Source: Gemmatimonadota bacterium (lineage in GTDB: Bacteria > Gemmatimonadota > Gemmatimonadetes > Longimicrobiales > Longimicrobiaceae). Taken from it: a stretch of 64,000 nucleotides of DNA. Location: assembly GCA_031260285.1 (NCBI GenBank), contig JAIRKD010000063.1, positions 1 through 64,000 of the forward strand, read 5' to 3'. Positions 2,455 through 19,714 of this stretch are shown here, piece after piece. The translations under genes were made by a program, and so were the position numbers. The first letter of the stretch is position 1. Every line of letters begins with the position of its first letter. The notes under the pieces were generated by a model that had not been told where the DNA came from, did no database searches, and worked only from the letters and a program-made list of their open reading frames with translations.

Positions 2455-3741
2455 TCACGACTTCGTGGCGCTCCACACAACCCGACCGCCCACCAGCGTT
2501 GCGACCGGCCGGCCCTTGAGCCGCCACCCTGCAAAGGGAGTATTCCGGCTCAGCGAAAGGAAGTCCTCCGGCTGGACCAGCCATTCCACATCCGGATCAA
2601 AGATCGTCACATCCGCCAGCGAACCTTCCCCGAGGGTACCGCCGGGCAGTCCGAATGCACGGGCCGGGGCGCAGCTCATCCGCTCGATCAGCGTTGGCAG
2701 GTCAATCCGCTTCCGGTGGACAAGTTCGGTAAGCGCGAGGCCAAGTGCCGTCTCCAGCCCGACAATCCCGAAGGGAGCATCGTCAAACGCCTGCTCCTTC
2801 TCGTCGTAGTGATGGGGCGCGTGGTCCGTCGCGATCACATCCAGCGTCCCGTCGATCACACCCTGGATCACCGCGTCACGATCTGCCTCCGAGCGCAACG
2901 GCGGGTTCATCTTGGCGTCGGTACCGTAAGAGACAACCGCTTCATCCGTGAGGGTGAAGTGATGGGGAGTGGCTTCCGCGGAGACCCGGATCCCCCGGGC
3001 CCGCGCCTCGCGGATCATCTCCACCCCGCGCCGCGTGGACACATGCTGGATGTGCAGCCGGCCGCCTGTGAGCTCCGCGAGCTGAAGGTCGCGGGCGATC
3101 ATCACATCCTCAGCGGCGTTCGGGATTCCGGTGAGACCCAGGCGGGTCGCGGTGATTCCCTCGTTCATCACTCCGCCGCGCGAAAGATCGTGGTCCTCCG
3201 CATGTACCGAGACCGGGATATCAAACGTCTGGGCGTACTCAAGCGCCAGCCGCATCACGCTTGCGCGAGTGACCGGTTTTCCGTCGTCGGTAACCGTCAC
3301 GGCGCCGGCCTTCACCATCTCCCCGAACTCCGCCAGCTGCTCACCCTTCTGGCCCACAGTGATGGCGCCGGAAGGAAGTACACGAGCCAGACCGACACGC
3401 CGCCCTTCCGCGAGTACAAAACCCACGGTGGCGGAGTTATCAATCGGAGGGTCGGTGTTGGGCATCGCCACAACCGTGGTGAACCCGCCTGCCACAGCGG
3501 AGGCAGACCCGGTGCGGATTGTCTCCTTGTGCTCGAAACCCGGCTCACGAAGGTGGACGTGCAGATCAATCAGACCCGGCGCGACGATCAGCCCGGATGC
3601 GTCAATTACATCTGCATCCGTAGAATCAAGCGACTCGCCGAGACCCACGATCCGGCCTTCCGCGATCAGGACATCCAGCTTCCCATCCACCCGGCGCGAC
3701 GGGTCGATGACCCGGCCGCCTCGAATTACAATCGGCTTCAC
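2455..3741 (-). CDS. pyrC: Dihydroorotase
   Basis: 428 residues. It converts carbamoyl-aspartate to dihydroorotate, the third step of de novo pyrimidine synthesis. The amidohydrolase metal site is visible: HVH at residues 61-63 (DLHVHLREPG), the VTVTDDGK segment with the bridging Asp of class I enzymes, His in VHAEDHD and IQHVSTRRG, and the catalytic Asp in ATDHAPHH. The length is normal for bacterial class I enzymes. It starts 4 bases after the pyrB stop, so translation is probably coupled. The pairing of active PyrC with adjacent PyrB suggests an ATCase-DHOase association, although the sequence does not show this. Confidence 0.96.
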   Translation of the reverse strand: MKPIVIRGGRVIDPSRRVDGKLDVLIAEGRIVGLGESLDSTDADVIDASGLIVAPGLIDLHVHLREPGFEHKETIRTGSASAVAGGFTTVVAMPNTDPPIDNSATVGFVLAEGRRVGLARVLPSGAITVGQKGEQLAEFGEMVKAGAVTVTDDGKPVTRASVMRLALEYAQTFDIPVSVHAEDHDLSRGGVMNEGITATRLGLTGIPNAAEDVMIARDLQLAELTGGRLHIQHVSTRRGVEMIREARARGIRVSAEATPHHFTLTDEAVVSYGTDAKMNPPLRSEADRDAVIQGVIDGTLDVIATDHAPHHYDEKEQAFDDAPFGIVGLETALGLALTELVHRKRIDLPTLIERMSCAPARAFGLPGGTLGEGSLADVTIFDPDVEWLVQPEDFLSLSRNTPFAGWRLKGRPVATLVGGRVVWSATKS

Positions 3742-3745
3742 GACG

Positions 3746-4720
3746 TTACGACTCCATTCCCGTTCGGGCCATCTCGGCCGATTCCGACTTGCCGCCTGCG
3801 AGGAGGTAAAGCACCGCCATACGTACCGCTACACCGTTTGTCACCTGCGGAAGGATCACCGAATGAGGCCCGTCCGCGACAACCGAATCGATCTCCACAC
3901 CCCGGTTCATCGGGCCCGGATGCAGGATGAGCAGATCCCGCGGAGCGCGCTCCAGCCGCTCTCGGGTGACACCGAAGATCCGGTTGTACTCGCGCAGTGA
4001 GGGGATGAACCCGCTCTTCATCCGCTCCAGCTGGAGGCGGAGGACGTTAAGCGCGTCTCCCCATTCAATCGCTTCTTCGATCCGCCGGAAGACCGTTACA
4101 CCGAGTTCCTCGATCGCCGGCGGGATCAGTGTCTTGGGCCCGCATACCGCGACCTCAGCGCCGACCTTCCGCAGCCCCCAGATGTTCGAGCGGGCGACCC
4201 GGGAGTGCAGCACATCCCCGACAATCACCACCTTGATGCCTTCCAGCCGGCCGAGATGATCGCGCAGTGTGAGCATATCCAGCAGCCCCTGGGTCGGGTG
4301 CTCATGCCCTCCGTCACCCGCGTTGATCACATTGGAGGCGATCCGTTCCGCCAGGAACTGCGGCGCGCCTGAGGAGCCATGGCGGATGACAACCATGTCG
4401 ATGCGCATCGCCTCCAGATTCCGCGCTGTATCCACCAGCGTTTCACCCTTGGAGACGGACGATCCACCTGCCGCGAAGTTGACGGTATCCGCCGAAAGCC
4501 GCTTCTCCGCAAATTCGAAGGAGATCCGGGTACGGGTGGAGTTCTCGAAGAAGGCGTTGACGATTGTCTTCCCCCGAAGAAGCGGGACTTTCTTGATCGT
4601 ACGCTCGGAGATCTCCTTGAACGGCTCGGACGTATCGAGAATGCCGAGGATCTGTTCACGGGAGAGCTGCTCAAGGCCGAGCAGGTCCTTGCCGAGAGAA
4701 GGTGCGTACCTGGAGTTCAC
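3746..4720 (-). CDS. pyrB: Aspartate carbamoyltransferase catalytic subunit
   Basis: 324 residues. It joins carbamoyl phosphate and aspartate, the committed step of pyrimidine synthesis. The carbamoyl-phosphate loop STRTR lies at residues 61-65, and HPTQGLLDM and the C-terminal HPGPMNRG segment are intact. The length matches catalytic subunits. No PyrI regulatory subunit is nearby, so control is more likely transcriptional through pyrR, whose stop overlaps this start by 4 bp (4717-4720). Confidence 0.97.
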
Positions 4721-5268
4721 CGGGACTCCTTGACCAGCGCAACCCCCAGCTGGCCATCAATCTCGGGAACCATCACCTCAACCAGATCCCCCGAGGGGAT
4801 GTTGTAGCTCTTTCCGACGATATCCGCCTGGATCGGCAGTTCCCGGCCACCGCGATCCACAAGCACGCAGAGAAGGATCCGGCTTGGGCGCCCGAAGTCG
4901 GTCAGCTCATCCAGCGCCGCCCGGACCGTGCGGCCGGTGAAGAGCACATCGTCCACAATGGCGACAGCACGCTGTTCGATGCCATCAATCGGCAACCGGG
5001 TCTCGCCCACCACCGGGCGGGGACCGATCGCCATCAGATCATCGCGATAGAGAGTGATGTCCAGCGTGCCGGTTGCGGGGGCAACTCCTTCCGCGTTCTC
5101 GATTTCCCGGGCAAGCCAGTTGGCGAGGTGTACTCCCCGCCGATGGATTCCGACAAGGGTCAACCGCTCAATGCCGCCGGCCTGTTCAACAACCTCATGG
5201 GCCATGCGCGCGAGTATACGTCGCACGGCCTGGTGGTCCAGCAGCAGCTGTCGCTGTGGCTCGCTCAT
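4717..5268 (-). CDS. pyrR: PyrR: pyrimidine operon regulator / uracil phosphoribosyltransferase
   Basis: 183 residues. It has the type I phosphoribosyltransferase fold with the PRPP loop [12 protein letters not shown] at about residues 103-114. PyrR proteins bind UMP-sensitive mRNA sites and often retain weak uracil phosphoribosyltransferase activity. It is the first gene of the minus-strand operon and overlaps pyrB by 4 bp. The predicted leader before its ATG is only about 40 nt, too short for a full anti-antiterminator/attenuator. If PyrR regulates here it may act on translation or at another site. Confidence 0.94.
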
Positions 5269-5310
5269 GCGCTCAGATCGGGGCGTTCAGGATGGGTAGG
5301 CAATCGTCCC

Positions 5311-5340
5311 AAGATACCCACATCCCCCGGGAGGTGTCAA
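5311..5340 (-). promoter_or_regulatory. Sigma70-type promoter of the pyr operon
   Basis: On the minus strand a consensus -35 hexamer TTGACA (5340-5335) is separated by 18 bases from TATCTT (5316-5311). The -10 ends 42 bases before the pyrR ATG at 5268, giving a short leader of about 35-40 nt. It sits in the 168-base gap between the tadA fusion and pyrR, so the pyr genes can be transcribed independently of gltX-tadA. Confidence 0.7.
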
Positions 5341-5436
5341 CGCGGAGGATCGGGTGGGGCGGAGGGGTTTTCAGGGGATGGATAACGCCTGTTACAGCAG
5401 GCTGAGGCTGATTTCCCGACGGGGGAAGCCCAATCT

Positions 5437-6327
5437 TCACCCCGGCTGCTGGGGAGACCAGGCGTCGGGTTTCTTTTTTGAGAGGACCCGGCGCTCGCGG
5501 AAGAAGGCGCGGAGCAGGGCGGCACTTTCCTCGGCCATCACTCCGGTCTTCAGCTCCACCCGGTGGTTCAGGCGGACGTCGTGGGCCAGGTTCTCCAGCG
5601 AACCGCACATCCCTGCCTTGGGGTCGGTTGCACCGAAGATGAGGCGGGGGATCCGCGACAGCACAATTGCGCCCGCACACATCGCACAGGGCTCAAGTGT
5701 GACATACAGAGCGCAATCGAGCAGGCGCCAGTGACCGATCCGTTCGGCCGCCCGGCGGATCGCCACCATCTCCGCGTGGGCGGACGGATCGTTATCCGTC
5801 TGGGTGAGGTTATGCCCCGAAGCGATCAGCTCTCCGTTCCGGACCACCACCGCGCCCACCGGCACTTCTCCAAGTGAGAAGGCGACCTTCGCCTCCTCAA
5901 GCGCCAGTGCCATCCAGCGCTTGTCTTCAATATCCCCTTCCCCGCCATCTGCCGGAGGCGCGATGGATGGAGCAGAGATCTGTCCCTCCGGTCTGTCAGA
6001 TGCCGGCGGGGTGATGGCGGCCGCTCCGGCACCAGCCGGCTCCGGGCCCGCTGCCTCAACCCCGGCCACCGCTTCAACCCTGACCGCCCCGGTACCGGAA
6101 AGCGTGACGCTGAGACCGAGAATCCGGACTCCCCGCGAGCGTGATTCCCTGCGCTCGATGAAGCCCTTGTCGTGCAGCGCCTGGAGGTATCCGGAGACCG
6201 TTCTGGTGGACCGGATCCCGAAGCGGTCCCCGATCTCCCGGATGCTCGGCTGGAAAGTGTTCTTCCGGAGGTAATCGATGATGTAATCGAGGATCCGACG
6301 CTCGATCTTCGAAAGAGGCTCAGCCAT
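5437..6327 (-). CDS. tadA: LexA-type winged HTH fused to tRNA adenosine deaminase TadA
   Basis: 296 residues in one uninterrupted frame. Residues 1-71 match the LexA DNA-binding domain (IERRILDYI, helix pair QPSIREIGDRFGIRS, then ESRSRGVRILG, the usual exit of the LexA wing). A Pro/Ala/Gly-rich linker covers about 72-134. Residues 135-296 are a full TadA cytidine-deaminase-fold domain with the zinc site H184-A-E186, C214 and C217 (PCAMC). TadA makes inosine-34 in tRNA-Arg(ACG). The LexA S24 autoprotease domain is absent, so this is not a SOS repressor. The internal Met in RWMALALEE could allow a separate TadA product. It follows gltX by 20 bases. Confidence 0.88.
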   Translation of the reverse strand: MAEPLSKIERRILDYIIDYLRKNTFQPSIREIGDRFGIRSTRTVSGYLQALHDKGFIERRESRSRGVRILGLSVTLSGTGAVRVEAVAGVEAAGPEPAGAGAAAITPPASDRPEGQISAPSIAPPADGGEGDIEDKRWMALALEEAKVAFSLGEVPVGAVVVRNGELIASGHNLTQTDNDPSAHAEMVAIRRAAERIGHWRLLDCALYVTLEPCAMCAGAIVLSRIPRLIFGATDPKAGMCGSLENLAHDVRLNHRVELKTGVMAEESAALLRAFFRERRVLSKKKPDAWSPQQPG

Positions 6328-11948: not shown

Positions 11949-13301
11949 ATGAGACGCTGGTTTTCAACTGTCCGCACCGGTCTGTCGCGCGCCCTGAAGG
12001 ATTACAAGGACAGTGCCGGGAGCGCCGCGCCCCCGCGATCGGGTTCACCGGGTGAGGCCATGAAGCTGGAAGAACTGGTTGATACAGCCCTGGTCCGGAA
12101 GGCCCGGGCAGCAATCCACAGCCGCGATGACGAGACCTTCGCGGAGCAGTTGCGTATCGCCACCATCGCGGCGCCTACCGGCGAAGAACGCGCCCGGGCG
12201 GCGTATATCGCCCGACGGTTTGTTTCGATGGGGCTGGTCAACACAACCATCGACCGGGTCGGGAATGTACTCGGCACACTTCCCGGGTGGGGCTGCGAAC
12301 CGGGGGCGGATCATTCACCCGTGGTTGTCTCCGCGCATCTGGATACCATCTTCCCCGTGGGGACCCCGATCAACCTCCGCCGGGAGGAAAACCGCGTTTA
12401 TGCCCCTGGAATCACCGATAACTCCCGGGGTGTGGCAGCCCTTCTCCGGGTCGCGGAAACGCTGATCGAGACGGACTGCCGCCTCCGTCACCCGCTTGTC
12501 TTTGTGGCCACCGTGGGAGAAGAGGGACTGGGTGATCTGCGCGGAGTGAAATATCTCTTCCGGAGGGGCTCCGGTTTTGAAGAGACCGCCGCATTCATCG
12601 CGATTGACGGGGCGGGCTCAACCCGGATCATTCACAGCGCAATCGGCGCGCGCAGACTGCGCTTTACGATTGTCGGATCAGGGGGCCATTCATGGGGTGA
12701 TCGCGGAATGGCGAGTCCCTCCATCGCGATGGGAGCCGCCATCGCGCGTCTCGTGGAACTCGCTCCGGACCGGGGTTCAGCGGTGAATGCGGGAAGGCTG
12801 GGCGGCGGAACAAGTGTAAACGCGATCCCATCGGACTGCTGGTGCGAGGTGGACCTTCGCGCCCGCAACGGCGGTCGTCTGGAGGTACTTGAGAGGCAGA
12901 CCCGGGAGCTCTTTGAAGAAGCCACCCGGGAAGAAACCCGCCGAAGCGGTTGGGGAGTTCCGCTTGAATGCCGGGTTGAGCGGATCGGAGACCGGCCCTG
13001 CGGCGAGACCCCCGCCGGCAACCCGCTTGTCTGCGCGGCGGTCGCGGCTACCCGTTTTCTGGGTGAAACGCCCGACCTGGGTGCTTCCTCCACCGACGCC
13101 AATGTACCGATCTCGCTCGGAATCCCCGCGATCGCCATCGGCGCGGGTGGTTATGGCGGCGGGGTTCACACCCACAGTGAATGGTACGACAACACCAACG
13201 GCGCCCGCGGCATTGAACGAGCTCTGCTCATCACTCTCGCCGCCGCGGGGCTGCGACCGGTTGATCAGCTCTCCGTCGCCCGTGCGTCCACCACGGAGTA
13301 A
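11949..13301 (+). CDS. M20 family zinc peptidase (PepT/DapE-like)
   Basis: 450 residues. The di-zinc site is visible: His in VVSAHLDTIF, bridging Asp in APGITDNSRG, catalytic Glu pair in VGEEGLGD, Asp in FIAIDGAG, and the final His in GVHTHSEWYD. An M20 dimerisation domain is inserted in the middle (about 225-335). The substrate (peptide or acylated amino acid) is not evident. ATG at 12060 (MKLEELVD) starts at the conserved fold and is preceded by GGTGAGG, so it may be the true start. The 3' end overlaps the convergent nucleotidyltransferase by 37 bp. Confidence 0.88.
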   Translation: MRRWFSTVRTGLSRALKDYKDSAGSAAPPRSGSPGEAMKLEELVDTALVRKARAAIHSRDDETFAEQLRIATIAAPTGEERARAAYIARRFVSMGLVNTTIDRVGNVLGTLPGWGCEPGADHSPVVVSAHLDTIFPVGTPINLRREENRVYAPGITDNSRGVAALLRVAETLIETDCRLRHPLVFVATVGEEGLGDLRGVKYLFRRGSGFEETAAFIAIDGAGSTRIIHSAIGARRLRFTIVGSGGHSWGDRGMASPSIAMGAAIARLVELAPDRGSAVNAGRLGGGTSVNAIPSDCWCEVDLRARNGGRLEVLERQTRELFEEATREETRRSGWGVPLECRVERIGDRPCGETPAGNPLVCAAVAATRFLGETPDLGASSTDANVPISLGIPAIAIGAGGYGGGVHTHSEWYDNTNGARGIERALLITLAAAGLRPVDQLSVARASTTE

Positions 13302-14269
13302 TCGCCGAGGTCCACCTTTCCCTTCACACCCTGCGCAACAACCGAGTTACCGACCAGCGAATCGTGAAGCTCCGACTTCTCGATGCGCGACCCGTTTCCG
13401 ACGATGGTGTCACGCAGCCGGGAGCCCGCAACCACACTTCCCGCCCCGATGGTCACGTTCGGACCGATCTCGGAGTCCGTAAGCTCCACCCCATCCGCGA
13501 TATGCACCGGGTCATGAATCACCACTCCGGACTTTTCCGGGGGGCGCCGGCCACGCGTGGTCCCCAGCACATGTGCGTTGGTCTCCAGAAGTGTTTCGGG
13601 CTTGCCGGCATCATACCACCCCGCTACCTCAACCGTCCGGAGCTTTGCACCGTGATCCACCATGTACTGGAAAGCGTCGGTGAGGAAGTACTCTTCACCC
13701 GCCTTCAGCTCCCGGTCCATCGTCGCCGCGATTCCCTCGAAGAGAAGCTTCCAGTCCCGGATGTAATAAAGACCGATATTTGCCAGCTTCGAGATCGGCT
13801 CCTTCGGCTTTTCGATGATTCTGAGCATGTTGCCCTCATCGTCGGTGACAATCACGCCGAAGCGCTGATAGTCCTCCACTTCCTTCACCCAGATCACCCC
13901 GGCGACGTCTTCCGGGAGGTCTTTCACGATGGAGAGATCGGCGTCAAAAAGCGTATCAACAAAGATGATGAGCAGTTCCTCGCTCACCCAGGGCTCGGAG
14001 AGGGAGATCGCCCCCGCCGTCCCGTTCTGTACCGGCTGGGGAACGTAGACCCCTTCGAAGTCCGGGTACTCCTCGCGTACAAACTTCTCAACCTGCTCCT
14101 TCAGGTGCCCCGTGACAAACACTCCTTCATGAACCCCGAGCTCCCGGAGGTCATCAAGGATGTAGCCGAGTACGGGCTTGTCTCCCACCCGCAGCAGGGG
14201 CTTCGGAGTGACCAGCGTATGGGGTCGAAGACGGGTTCCCTTCCCCGCCACGGGCATGACGACTTTCAA
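13265..14269 (-). CDS. Sugar-phosphate nucleotidyltransferase with beta-helix tail
   Basis: 334 residues. The N-terminal Rossmann-like domain carries the pyrophosphorylase signature AGKGTRLRPHT near residues 8-18, TPKPLLRVGDKP, and an Asp (IIFVDTLFD) for metal binding. From about 240 there are hexapeptide-like turns of a left-handed beta-helix (IGPNVTIGAGSVVAGS, LVGNSVVAQG). This is the layout of glucose-1-phosphate thymidylyl/uridylyltransferase-like enzymes that make NDP-sugars. The exact sugar and nucleotide cannot be assigned. It reads convergently into the M20 gene and is divergent from lon. Confidence 0.88.
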   Translation of the reverse strand: MKVVMPVAGKGTRLRPHTLVTPKPLLRVGDKPVLGYILDDLRELGVHEGVFVTGHLKEQVEKFVREEYPDFEGVYVPQPVQNGTAGAISLSEPWVSEELLIIFVDTLFDADLSIVKDLPEDVAGVIWVKEVEDYQRFGVIVTDDEGNMLRIIEKPKEPISKLANIGLYYIRDWKLLFEGIAATMDRELKAGEEYFLTDAFQYMVDHGAKLRTVEVAGWYDAGKPETLLETNAHVLGTTRGRRPPEKSGVVIHDPVHIADGVELTDSEIGPNVTIGAGSVVAGSRLRDTIVGNGSRIEKSELHDSLVGNSVVAQGVKGKVDLGDYSVVDARATES

Positions 14270-14513: not shown

Positions 14514-17093
14514 ATGCCGAAGAGTCATCCAGAAAGCCACGATCCCTCCGAATCGCTCAACGATACGCTGCCGGAACGCATTCCGGTCATGCCCATCAAG
14601 AGCACCGTTCTCTTTCCGACTGGCGCAACCGGTCTGCAGATCGGCTTTACGCCGAATATCGAGCTGCTGACGCGCTACTCTGCCCGCAACCTTGTTGTCG
14701 GTCTCGTCTATTCCAGCGATGACGAGATGCCGATTGATCCTGAGTCTCTGGAGAAGATCGGGGTTGCCGCGCGGGTGCTCAACCGGCTGAACCTGCCGGG
14801 GGGAATGATCCAGACCACCGTACAGGGGCTGATCCGGATCCGGCTGGAGGAGGTCCGGCTGGAGGACGGGGTCTATACCGCCTACCCCCGGTTTGTTGAG
14901 GAGACAGCGGCGGACAACGCTGAGGCGGAGGCGCTGGTGGAACGGATCCTCACCACGCTTGGCGGAATGGGTGCGATGGTACCCCGGCTCAGCGAGGTGC
15001 CGAAGATTCTGCGGGGGAATCTGGGGGATCCGGGCCGGTTTGCGGACCTTGTTGCGTCTCTCGCGCATCTGAACGTGGAGGAGCGCGATGGTGTGCTTCA
15101 GCGTCTGGATGTGCTTGACCGGCTGAAGTACGTCGATTCGGTTCTGGAGGCGGAATGGTCCCGTCTCCAGGAAAGGGAAACCGGGGAGGCCAGCCCTTCC
15201 GGGGCGGCAATGGAGACACGTGACACCCCGGACGCTCCGACAGCTGACCGGGTCCGCAACCTCCGCCGGAGGATCGCCACCCTCCAGGCTGAACTCGGCG
15301 AGGTTGACCCCGGTGAACGCCAGGCTCTCGAACTCCTTCGCCGGATCGATCGCTCAAAGCTCCCCGGCCGGGTTGCGTCCGTTGCGCGGCAGGAGGCCGA
15401 GCGGCTCCGCATGGTTCCTCCGGCCTCTCCGGAGGCCGCGGAGATCCGCCATTACGTTGACACCCTTCTGGAACTGCCCTGGCTCGCCCGCGGTGACTAC
15501 CGGGAGATCGACCTCGATCAGGTGCGGGAAAAGCTGAACGAAGGTCATGTCGGGCTCGAAGAGGTGAAGCGCAAAATCCTCGAATTCCTCTCCGTGACCA
15601 AGCTTCGGGAGAATGTTCTGGGACCCATCCTCTGTATCTCCGGCCCCCCCGATGTAGGCAAATCGTCGCTGGTTACGGACGTCGCGGAGGGGCTTGGCCG
15701 GCCGCTTGTCCGTCTCCAGCTGGGTGGGCGCGGAGAGGCGGCGCTGATGGGCAGCCGGCGGGGCCGGGCGGGTGCTCACGCCGGGAAGATTCTCAACGCC
15801 ATCCGCGATACCGGGGTACGTGACCCGGTATTCCTTCTGGAGGAGATTGATCTCATCGGGATCGGGAATGTGGAAGGAGATCCGGTGGAGGCACTTGAGG
15901 AGCTCCTCAACCCCGAACACCGATCGGAGTTTGTGGACCACTACGTTGACCTTCCCTTTGACCTGACCGATACCATCTTCATCGCCACCGCAAATGACTT
16001 CTTCCGCGTCCCCCGTTCCCTCCGGGAGCTGCTGATCGAGATCCGGATCGCCGGGTACACCCCTGAGGAAAAGGTCTCGATCGCCCGCGAACACATCCTC
16101 CCCGAGATGATCCGTGCCAACGGGCTCCGGGCGGAGGAGATTGTGGTCACAGACCCGACTCTCAGCTTCCTCACCCGGGGATATGCCCGCGATTCCGGCC
16201 TCGGCAGCCTCCGGCGCGCAATCGGCGCGGTTCTGCGCTACATCGCCTACGGGAAGGCGCACGACCAGCAGAGCCACTGGGAAGTGACTCCGGCACTTGT
16301 TGAGGAGATCCTCGGCTCGCCCCGCTATCCGAGCACGGAAGCAGAGAACCGCCCCGAGGTCGGGGTGGTCACGGGTCTCGCCTGGACGGCTTCCGGGGGT
16401 GAACTGATGTTCATCGAGGCGCTGAAGATGCCCGGGAAGGGGCGTCTGATCATCACGGGAATGCTCGGCGATGTGATGAAGGAGTCGGTCAACGCGGCCT
16501 ATTCGTATGTACGCTCGCGGGCGGAGCTGCTGGGAATTCCCCGGGAGGTGTTCCCCACGCACGATCTGCACATCCACTTCCCAGTCGGCGCGACTCCGAA
16601 GGATGGCCCTTCCGCCGGGGCCGCCGTTACACTCGCGATGGCGTCCTCCCTCTCGGACCGGTGCGTCCGGCACGACATTGCGCTCACCGGCGAGGTGACC
16701 CTCCGGGGGAAGATTCTGGAGATCGGCGGGGTGAAGGAGAAGATCCTCGCCGCATACCGGGCCGGCATCCGCGAGGTGATTCTGCCGGTGGGCAACGAAC
16801 GCGATCTTCGTGATGTGCCGATGGATGTCCGGGAGGGGATGGTCTTCCATCTGGTGAACCATATCGACCAGGTCTTCCGGATCGCGCTGGTCGGGAAGGA
16901 AGGGACTCCGGGCGCCGGGATCTCCCGTCCGGAGGTGACCAAAGAACAACGGGGAATGGCTGCCACATCAAGGGACTCCGCGGATGCCCCCCGACGCGTT
17001 GTCAGGACAACCCGACCGGCGCCCGAACCGACGGGAGCGGAGCATACGGTCCGGCGGAGGAGGAAAGGAGCAGATCCGGATCACATCAGCTGA
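14514..17093 (+). CDS. lon: Lon-family protease with degenerate AAA+ module
   Basis: 859 residues from the ATG at 14514. It has an N-terminal LON substrate domain (about 20-215), a coiled helical region, an AAA+ module (about 345-590) and the Lon Ser-Lys protease domain (about 620-805) with S700 (PKDGPSAG) and K743 (GGVKEK) intact. In the ATPase the Walker A (GPPDVGKS, 377-384) survives. Walker B is EE (443-444) instead of DE. The Arg-finger position (E. coli R484) is L506, sensor-2 Arg (R542) is G564, and the pore-loop aromatic (Y398) is R418. An Arg-rich, probably disordered tail follows residue 805. It may be a Lon paralogue with altered ATP coupling. Confidence 0.93.
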   Translation: MPKSHPESHDPSESLNDTLPERIPVMPIKSTVLFPTGATGLQIGFTPNIELLTRYSARNLVVGLVYSSDDEMPIDPESLEKIGVAARVLNRLNLPGGMIQTTVQGLIRIRLEEVRLEDGVYTAYPRFVEETAADNAEAEALVERILTTLGGMGAMVPRLSEVPKILRGNLGDPGRFADLVASLAHLNVEERDGVLQRLDVLDRLKYVDSVLEAEWSRLQERETGEASPSGAAMETRDTPDAPTADRVRNLRRRIATLQAELGEVDPGERQALELLRRIDRSKLPGRVASVARQEAERLRMVPPASPEAAEIRHYVDTLLELPWLARGDYREIDLDQVREKLNEGHVGLEEVKRKILEFLSVTKLRENVLGPILCISGPPDVGKSSLVTDVAEGLGRPLVRLQLGGRGEAALMGSRRGRAGAHAGKILNAIRDTGVRDPVFLLEEIDLIGIGNVEGDPVEALEELLNPEHRSEFVDHYVDLPFDLTDTIFIATANDFFRVPRSLRELLIEIRIAGYTPEEKVSIAREHILPEMIRANGLRAEEIVVTDPTLSFLTRGYARDSGLGSLRRAIGAVLRYIAYGKAHDQQSHWEVTPALVEEILGSPRYPSTEAENRPEVGVVTGLAWTASGGELMFIEALKMPGKGRLIITGMLGDVMKESVNAAYSYVRSRAELLGIPREVFPTHDLHIHFPVGATPKDGPSAGAAVTLAMASSLSDRCVRHDIALTGEVTLRGKILEIGGVKEKILAAYRAGIREVILPVGNERDLRDVPMDVREGMVFHLVNHIDQVFRIALVGKEGTPGAGISRPEVTKEQRGMAATSRDSADAPRRVVRTTRPAPEPTGAEHTVRRRRKGADPDHIS

Positions 17094-17152
17094 ACCGGAG
17101 CTGCATCCGCAGGATGCTTTTCCGCTTCGGGGATCGAGCCTATTTTCAGGGT

Positions 17153-18130
17153 ATGTCACTTCTGCCCTGGGGACGCGTGTCCCGTTCCGTGTCCTTCCCG
17201 ACCAGCCTACGGCTCACCCTTCTGGCTGTGATGCTGGCCGCCTGCGGTGGCTCCGGTGAGCAGACGGCTCCCGCCGTCCCGGCCACGGAAGGCGCTGCCG
17301 TAACCATTTTTCAGTTCAGCCGCGACTACATCTTCCTGAGTACCGGTAAGGACAGTCCGATTGTCGCACCGCTTACCATTTCAGCGATGGATGACGGAGA
17401 AAACCTCCAGCGTCACTGGATCGGGTGGGTTGCGCGTGGTGCCCAGTGGGATCGTTTTCTGGACACCTCCCGCCGGACTTCCCGGGCTGGCGGCGTCTGG
17501 GGCGTGCTGCCGGCCAACGAACTGCAGGTGATCGCGGGTGGCCCCTCCGAGGTGGAAAGCTTCCTGTACGAGCAGGCTGGCCGCCGTCTGCGGATGGTGA
17601 TCGGCACCCCGCGCAGCGACTGGAACCAGGGTGGCAACAACCGTTTCCGGATTCTTGATGGAAGTCTGCTGATCGGCGCTGAAAACGCCAGCGGCCTGAT
17701 CTTCGAGGTGCTGCGGGTAGAGCGATCTGAAGCGGATGGATGGCCGGTTTCCCAGGATCATGATGTGGTGTTTCTCACCAGCGGCGCCGACCTCCAGCTT
17801 CTGATGAGTACGGAAACCGGGAGCGGAAACGCGGCGTTCACCTGGATTCACTCGGCGGAAGAGGATCTGGTCCCTCCGGATGGCGTTGTGAGCTGGCTGG
17901 AAGTTCAACCGCTGGAGGAGGCCCGGCGCGATATTCCCATCGCATGGACGCTGACAAATCAGACAGCCGGGCTGAGCGGTGAGGTGCGGGCGATCGGACG
18001 GGATGTGGTGCTTGGCCCTGAACGCGGCGGCCGCCGGGCGGTTGAGATCCGCTATTCTGTGGAAGGATCCATCACCATCAACGGAACAAGCCGGCCGGTG
18101 GCGGGAACGATCCGGCACGCGCAGCAGTAG
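17153..18130 (+). CDS. Secreted lipoprotein of unknown function
   Basis: 325 residues from ATG 17153 (an upstream start at 17114 would give 338). The N-terminus has a basic start, a hydrophobic core and the lipobox LAAC with Cys at residue 31, followed by GGSG, indicating lipidation and export. The mature part is beta-rich with many Trp/Gly turns and shows no recognised domain. It begins 59 bases after lon and is probably read in the same direction, but no functional tie is evident. Confidence 0.75.
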   Translation: MSLLPWGRVSRSVSFPTSLRLTLLAVMLAACGGSGEQTAPAVPATEGAAVTIFQFSRDYIFLSTGKDSPIVAPLTISAMDDGENLQRHWIGWVARGAQWDRFLDTSRRTSRAGGVWGVLPANELQVIAGGPSEVESFLYEQAGRRLRMVIGTPRSDWNQGGNNRFRILDGSLLIGAENASGLIFEVLRVERSEADGWPVSQDHDVVFLTSGADLQLLMSTETGSGNAAFTWIHSAEEDLVPPDGVVSWLEVQPLEEARRDIPIAWTLTNQTAGLSGEVRAIGRDVVLGPERGGRRAVEIRYSVEGSITINGTSRPVAGTIRHAQQ

Positions 18131-18498: not shown

Positions 18499-19325
18499 GA
18501 TTCACTTCCCCCGGTGCGGGAGCGGACAAATGCAGCCATCCCCTCGCGCGTATCCGCCGTCAGCCGGGCAAGGGTATTCACCGTGACACCAGCAGATATC
18601 CCCCCGGAGAACGAGGTTGTATCCTGTGAATACAACAGCCGTTTCGCGAGGCTGAGCGCTGAAGCGCTTCTGCCCGCCAGTTCCCGCACAAACCCGTCAG
18701 CGTGGTCATCAAAACCGGCATCGGGGAAGGTCTCGTTCACCAGCCCGAACCGTTTCATCTCCGAAGCCGGATACTGCTTCCCCGTTGAGATCATTTCGAA
18801 AGCACGTTTCTCCGAGACATTCCGTCGCAGGATTCCAAGGACAATCGCCGGAACAAAACCCAGTTGAACCTCGGGATAACCGAAGATTGCGCTCTCCTCT
18901 GCAAGCACCAGATCACAGGCCGCAGCGAGCCCGCAGCCACCCGCGAGGGCACGACCGCGCACCCGCGCAACAACAGGCTTCTCCAGGGTACGGATGACCA
19001 GGAAGAGTTCAGCGAGTGCCTCCGCGTCACGGAGGTTCTCCACCATGGGAGCGGTGGTGAGGCGGGCGAGGGCAGAGAGATCCGCACCCGCGCAGAAATC
19101 CTTCCCCCTGCCTTCCAGGGTGACAACCCGCACGGAAGCATCATCACCAGCGCGCCGGAAGGCTCTCGCAAGCGCATCAACCAGTTCCCGGTCCAGCGCG
19201 TTCCGCTTCTCCGGCCGGTTGAGGATCAGCCTGCGGACCGGCCCTTCCATTGTTTCAGCAAGTGCATCCTGCGTCCGGTCTTCTCCGGCGCCCTGACCAC
19301 CAGCGCTGCTGGAGGAAACGCTCAT
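18495..19325 (-). CDS. Enoyl-CoA hydratase / isomerase family protein
   Basis: 276 residues of the crotonase superfamily. NRPEKRNALD and the oxyanion segments GKDFCAGADLS and ARVRGRALAGGCGLAAACD are typical, as is FGYPEVQLGFVP. Members hydrate or isomerise enoyl-CoA esters. The ATG at 19325 was chosen because it overlaps the preceding stop by 4 bp (ATGA). Pairing with an AtuA C-terminal-domain protein points towards acyl-CoA (isoprenoid/leucine-type) catabolism, which is inference. Confidence 0.88.
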   Translation of the reverse strand: MSVSSSSAGGQGAGEDRTQDALAETMEGPVRRLILNRPEKRNALDRELVDALARAFRRAGDDASVRVVTLEGRGKDFCAGADLSALARLTTAPMVENLRDAEALAELFLVIRTLEKPVVARVRGRALAGGCGLAAACDLVLAEESAIFGYPEVQLGFVPAIVLGILRRNVSEKRAFEMISTGKQYPASEMKRFGLVNETFPDAGFDDHADGFVRELAGRSASALSLAKRLLYSQDTTSFSGGISAGVTVNTLARLTADTREGMAAFVRSRTGGSES

Positions 19326-19713
19326 GACGCCGGTTCCGCGCTTCCATCCGCCGGAAAATGATCTCCCTCCGGGAAGGAAGCCGCGAGTTCCCCGGGGACA
19401 TCCACCCACATGCGCAGCATGGCGGTGGAAAGCGTCTTCCCCTGCGCGTCTGTCATCAGTGAAACAGTTCCTCCCCCGCCGAGTGACTCGTGGAGGAGGA
19501 AGTTGAGCGCCTGGAGGTTCGGCAGTTCAAATCGCTCCACCGCACCATGGCAGATACCCGTGAAGTGGGCCTTCACGCGTTCCGGCGTCAGTTCGCTGAG
19601 GAGAACCGGATAGTACTCCGGCCGGAGAGCAATCACCCCGATATTGGCGGTATCTCCCTTGTCTCCGGACCGGGCATGAGCGAGCCAGCGGAGCGGAACG
19701 CGCTTCTGGGCCA

Positions 19714-19714
<1 letters not shown>
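19322..19714 (-). CDS. AtuA C-terminal-domain protein
   Basis: 130 residues. It starts with the characteristic LAHARSGDKGDTANIGVIAL and contains FELPNLQALNFLLHESLGGGG, the pattern of the C-terminal domain of AtuA (acyclic terpene utilisation A, formerly DUF1446). Here it is a stand-alone protein, without the large N-terminal AtuA domain in the window. Its start shares a base with the guaB stop (TGATG) and its stop overlaps the enoyl-CoA hydratase start, so the three are translationally coupled. Confidence 0.8.

Follow-up and report, generated by a model that had tools for sequence, protein, structure and literature searches.

The window analysed here is a stretch of 64,000 nucleotides (positions 1 to 64,000 of the forward strand of contig JAIRKD010000063.1, GenBank assembly GCA_031260285.1) from a Gemmatimonadota bacterium of the family Longimicrobiaceae. 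At positions 14514-17093 of its plus strand, on which all features of this gene are given below, lies an open reading frame encoding a LonA-type protease of 859 residues with a degenerate ATPase; its ATG at 14514 coincides with the start codon of L033, the nearest orthologue, in the alignment. Four Pfam domains, all above cut-off and in the order of a full LonA architecture, make up the protein: the LON substrate-binding N domain (PF02190, E 4.5e-24; residues 23-208, 14580-15137), the AAA+ alpha/beta core (PF00004; residues 373-504, 15630-16025), the AAA+ lid (PF22667; residues 535-585, 16116-16268) and the S16 Lon protease domain (PF05362, E 1.3e-82; residues 591-793, 16284-16892). The lon equivalog model TIGR00763 is passed narrowly, with 617.6 bits against a cut-off of 608.05. 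Identity as a LonB was rejected, as TIGR00764 scores 93 bits against a cut-off of 516.6 and the alignment to LonA has no large AAA+ insertion.

The nearest solved structures are those of LonA proteases, Escherichia coli and Bacillus first. With E. coli Lon the protein shares its domain order, an A-type protease site and 37% identity over the aligned length, and a HMMER alignment runs without gaps over residues 608-794. An AlphaFold model, built on four sequences, has a predicted local distance difference test (pLDDT) score of 65 and a predicted template modelling score of 0.38. It matches LonA structures in the PDB with TM-scores of about 0.35-0.4 by query length, and it is too weak to support statements on individual contacts, for example salt bridges. 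Beyond the protease domain, a low-complexity tail that is Arg-rich in the window protein (residues 797-859, 16902-17090) is modelled with pLDDT mostly below 50 (796-859). The initial annotation had taken this tail for a possible nucleic-acid contact; its charge and sequence vary among the orthologues, a comparison that rules out a conserved Arg tail and speaks against that role.

To assign the motor residues, Lon of E. coli MG1655 (K-12) was used as reference in MAFFT alignments of 93-97 Lons and in the HMMER alignment, with published landmarks (Walker A, 356-363; Walker B, 419-424; sensor-1 N473; Arg finger R484; sensor-2 R542; pore-1 Tyr398) and pore-loop limits (PMC6722904, PMC9569914). The Arg finger R484 is Leu506 (16029-16031), the sensor-2 R542 is Gly564 (16203-16205), the substrate-gripping Tyr398 is Arg418 (15765-15767), and the Walker B pair D423-E424, DE in intact Lons, is E443-E444 (15840-15845). 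Retained are the Walker A K362 (Lys383) and both catalytic residues, S679 (Ser700, 16611-16613) and K722 (Lys743, 16740-16742). All of these assignments had been made in the initial annotation and prove exact against E. coli Lon, and its description of a degraded ATPase beside an intact Ser-Lys dyad is thus borne out residue by residue.

Further motor positions have changed. Walker A reads GPPDVGKS (residues 377-384, 15642-15665), with the central Gly replaced by Asp and the Thr by Ser. Glu462 stands in place of the invariant Leu441 in the pore-2 region (L441E, 15897-15899) and Arg470 in place of the invariant Asn449 of the RKH loop (N449R, 15921-15923); D387G, R392M, H394S, K427L, Q448H, E486I and E538D complete the set. 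Sensor-1 is kept as Asn494 (E. coli Asn473, 15993-15995). Sources differ on the Arg finger: in work on yeast Lon the number of the trans Arg finger maps by offset near E. coli R396 (PMC8913295), which the window protein keeps, and the others place it at R484.

Orthologues of this degenerate Lon occur in 24 genomes of a single order, 17 in family f1 (a count that takes in the window genome, a partial copy in G013 and a contig-end fragment in G016) and 7 in family f2, at 53-67% identity. Among the 23 usable sequences of the clade, Y398, D423, R484 and R542 are each found in 0/23, compared with 74/74 in a set of intact Lons. The losses listed in the initial annotation are thus fixed in a clade, and this clade is monophyletic. 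The hydrophobic partner of the pore-1 Tyr is likewise gone throughout, the Tyr itself having become Arg in 22 members and Gln in one. Other parts of the nucleotide pocket vary. The Walker A Lys is present in all 23, followed at the Thr position by Arg, Lys, Ala or Glu in 17 members, by Ser in three and by Thr in three; the sensor-1 Asn is lost in 21/23, being kept in L003 and L004; and Walker B reads TA, ES, AE, QE or GE in some members. Because the Walker B Glu has also gone from L017 (TA) and L104 (ES), these two members at least are most unlikely to hydrolyse ATP in the known way. From this distribution of residues across the clade we would place the losses common to all members on its stem, with erosion of the pocket probably following later, branch by branch. 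Separately, L074, a Lon of family f6, has Ser for the sensor-1 Asn and a pore-1 loop reading RSYAGA, possibly motor loss at an early stage that arose independently.

The protease domain is fully conserved. Its A-type site, with DGPSAG and the catalytic-Lys motif, is found in 22/22 orthologues, as are Ser700 and Lys743, and the clade keeps 42 of the 42 protease positions that are invariant across the 74 intact Lons. In human LONP1, V809, P854 and E882 keep the catalytic loop of the adjacent protease subunit in its active form (PMC8163871); the residues that correspond to them by offset, E. coli V633, P678 and E706, are retained in all 22. As an independent control, we defined the invariant positions from 36 Lons that belong neither to the clade nor to its sister group. 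By this measure 34/65 AAA+ core positions are retained in the degenerate clade, as against 41/42 protease positions (Fisher p 8.6e-8), while the intact sister keeps 61/65 and 41/42; both contrasts give a Fisher p of about 8e-8.

Rates of evolution show the same division. Within the clade, tree length is 9.2 for the AAA+ domain and 4.2 for the protease domain, a ratio of 2.2, whereas the corresponding lengths are 4.2 and 5.9 in the intact sister and 1.4 and 1.7 in the canonical Lon of family f1 (ratios of 0.7-0.8). Relative to its protease domain, the AAA+ core of the clade thus evolves 2-3 times faster than that of intact Lons. The ratio of non-synonymous to synonymous substitution rates (dN/dS) in the degenerate core, estimated from close pairs by a simple Nei-Gojobori count, is 0.06-0.29; being far under 1, it indicates a gene that is not decaying. 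The motor has been freed from its old constraint, yet some constraint remains. We give next to no weight to a pseudogene or an assembly artefact: most of the assemblies are drafts and some are moderately complete, but a frame open in 24 independent genomes at this divergence, with dN/dS well below 1 and a protease domain conserved as in intact clades, refutes such an explanation.

A search of the window genome with Lon_C returned two copies, and the second (G000:C58) has all ATPase motifs intact. The canonical second Lon that the initial annotation had in view is therefore present in the same genome. A canonical Lon coexists with the degenerate one in every genome checked, and its motifs are intact in all copies inspected from f1 and f2. 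This coexistence would suit a subunit that joins the canonical Lon in one assembly, as its partner or adaptor, and alters its activity, which recalls the "adaptor-like paralogue" of the initial annotation. We consider this very improbable. An adaptor would not need fully conserved protease chemistry, the split between the two lineages is old, and a subunit lacking the Arg finger should inactivate the site next to it in a mixed ring. Because all 42 invariant protease positions are kept, a working protease is the likelier role.

Phylogenetic analysis sets the clade apart from the canonical Lon of its own genomes. In a tree of the protease domain it falls on one side of a branch with a Shimodaira-Hasegawa-like approximate likelihood ratio (SH-aLRT) support of 94, and in a tree of lid plus protease its support is 100/99, with the intact Lon of family f5 of the class as sister (96/88). 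The trees omit the nucleotide-binding core; the lid includes sensor-2, yet the protease-only tree concurs. Constraining the clade to join the canonical Lon of its own family is 132 log units worse, with a p value of 3e-6 in the approximately unbiased test, which rules out that it is a copy of the canonical Lon that was duplicated recently and has since decayed. Convergent, non-monophyletic losses are likewise ruled out, the trees calling for one change. The f5 sister (L039-L069, L093-L099) is the closest relative in both trees and has 42-48% identity to the window protein over the alignment. Unlike the latter, it has every ATPase motif intact (GPPGTGKT, Y398, DE, N473, R484 and R542), and its neighbourhood also differs, adjoining genes of the rpsP-rimM-trmD type. 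Across the phylum, genomes hold one to four Lon-type matches each, a number that seems linked to family (three in most of f5).

Along with its losses the clade has gained residues that are fixed or nearly so and rare or absent elsewhere. In E. coli numbering these are R398, R449, R476 and R479, E438, E441 and E487, together with an acid at 433, D474 and F475. Four of them are new charged residues of the pore loops (Y398R, S438E, L441E and N449R), L441E occurring in 22/23 members and N449R in 23/23. Because these charged residues became fixed, we favour a rebuilt pore over simple decay.

The new arginines also bear on whether the motor could have been rewired. By its own terms the initial annotation would have been refuted had the Arg finger or the sensor-2 Arg shifted to a nearby position, and for the most part no such shift is found. 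Arg504 of the window protein (E. coli 482) is inherited, since an Arg stands there together with R484 in 44 of the 74 intact Lons; Arg476 and Arg479, on the other hand, are newly fixed and might be a displaced finger. Were they, with the frequent Arg545, to substitute for Arg finger and sensor-2, and were the EE Walker B to work, the protein would be a slow ATP-dependent Lon. The conservation of Arg476 (23/23), Arg479 (22/23), D474 and E487 (both 23/23) and the purifying selection on the AAA+ core fit this explanation. We nevertheless judge it improbable, given that every member lacks both the pore-1 Tyr and the hydrophobic residue partnering it, that the Walker A Thr/Ser is gone in 17/23 and the sensor-1 Asn in 21/23, and that L017 and L104 lack the Walker B Glu.

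A further alternative keeps nucleotide binding and dispenses with the motor: ATP or ADP, bound and not hydrolysed, would switch the chamber on and off. The universal Walker A Lys, the Ser or Thr next to it in six members including the window protein, and the sensor-1 Asn of L003 and L004 are consistent with such gating, and the hexamer of MtaLonC, a LonC protease, takes up six nucleotides that it does not hydrolyse (PMC3391209). Against it, 17/23 have another residue (Arg, Lys, Ala or Glu) at the Mg-binding Thr/Ser position, and the reporters of nucleotide state, sensor-2 and the Arg finger, are lost in all, so that we find this alternative rather unlikely. The proposal in the initial annotation that the protein binds nucleotide accordingly stays plausible for the window protein, with its GKS, and sits poorly with most orthologues, which have GKR, GKK or GKA.

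AAA+ proteases are commonly regarded as obligate ATP machines; to our knowledge, LonC is the one recognised motor-less Lon group. LonC (MEROPS S16 subfamily C; MtaLonC of Meiothermus taiwanensis, Thermus TTC1975) is a relative of LonB. For MtaLonC, which has a dead AAA-like ring, ATP-independent degradation of unfolded chains has been measured, and dephosphorylated casein is not degradable by it (PMC3391209). It resembles the degenerate Lon in combining a Ser-Lys protease with an AAA-like domain devoid of Walker B Glu, sensors and Arg finger, and in coexisting with LonA. Membership in LonC is ruled out by domain content and alignment: the LonA N domain, TIGR00763 and the AAA and Lon_lid families are all found in the window protein, which nests among LonA proteins and shows no gap against E. 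coli LonA across the protease domain. AAA_32 (PF13654) is not among its Pfam matches and matches in 0/21 genomes of family f1. Any LonC-like way of working would therefore be a convergence of separate origin. From LonA, in turn, the window protein differs by the absence of Arg finger, sensor-2, Walker B Asp and pore-1 Tyr. The open-access literature, subscription papers being outside our scope, held nothing relevant on a LonA with degenerate ATPase or on Lon in Gemmatimonadota. Two f2 genomes, G026 and G357, contain a further frame of 844-845 residues (L148, 1369-3261 of the minus strand, and L149) with a weak Lon_C match that by eye looks LonC- or AAA_32-like; family f1 lacks such a gene.

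With a complete chamber and a dead motor, a LonC-type working is the simplest model. We therefore consider it probable that this is a pseudo-ATPase of LonA lineage, an active ATP-independent protease for unfolded and possibly acidic chains that is independent of LonC. The ancestral motor would have worked as it does in the intact sister group. The ancestor of the two families would then have lost the Arg finger, sensor-2 and Walker B Asp, with which ATP is fired and read out, and the pore-1 Tyr, which grips the substrate, while retaining ring and protease chamber; Walker A Thr, sensor-1 Asn and Walker B Glu would have eroded afterwards, lineage by lineage. In the presumed hexamer, a static AAA-like collar would serve as a substrate sieve, admitting chains that are already unfolded. 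The arginines gained by the pore-1 and RKH loops lead us to propose a possible preference for acidic chains. With no ATP-driven unfolding, the chains would pass into a Ser-Lys chamber that is constitutively competent, and folded substrates would fall to the canonical Lon, whose gene lies elsewhere in the genome.

Several points weigh against this model. The window protein itself keeps the Walker A Lys, GKS, the sensor-1 Asn and EE, with which weak nucleotide binding or slow hydrolysis is possible; the fixed Arg476 and Arg479 and the frequent Arg545 could act as a displaced Arg finger or sensor-2; and confidence in the structural model is low. The peptidase activity of E. coli LonA needs ATP and Mg (PMC3391209), and activation of the chamber free of ATP is a prediction here. 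More tentatively, and at somewhat less than even odds in our estimate, ATP-independent Lons may have arisen twice, this clade being a separate case that emerged from LonA. Its ring would have become a static charge-lined sieve (Arg in pore-1 and RKH loops, Glu in pore-2) that passes unfolded acidic or phosphorylated chains to the fully conserved protease chamber, and intermediates of the loss, with sensor-1 and Walker A Thr still present in some members, would survive in living lineages.

The motor was lost recently enough for an intact sister to exist at roughly 45% identity and for intermediate states to survive. It thereby becomes testable which parts of the Lon motor activate the chamber and which only unfold substrates. 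This natural series of pseudo-ATPases scores as "endopeptidase La", and ATP dependence would be assumed for its members.

Divergent from the degenerate lon, a nucleotidyltransferase gene (NTP_transferase plus hexapeptide; PF00483, E 2.9e-29) lies at 13265-14269 on the minus strand. This gene and an M20 peptidase gene are frequent neighbours in a rough clustering of open reading frames that merged some antisense frames, and no mechanism is implied. The neighbourhood comparison yielded no operon and no partner gene that would name a function, and a promoter and terminator scan found nothing. In L033, from a genome of the same genus, tandem antiporter-like membrane proteins (2520-4151 and 4148-5734; CPA2/KefB-like by eye) lie directly upstream of the degenerate lon; the pair is absent from the corresponding place in the window. 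Downstream of lon in the window, a lipoprotein-like frame without Pfam match occupies 17114-18127 (plus strand). At 19325-19714 (minus strand) a stand-alone AtuA ferredoxin-like domain protein is encoded beside an enoyl-CoA hydratase and an IMP dehydrogenase, a block that recurs in several genomes of the family.
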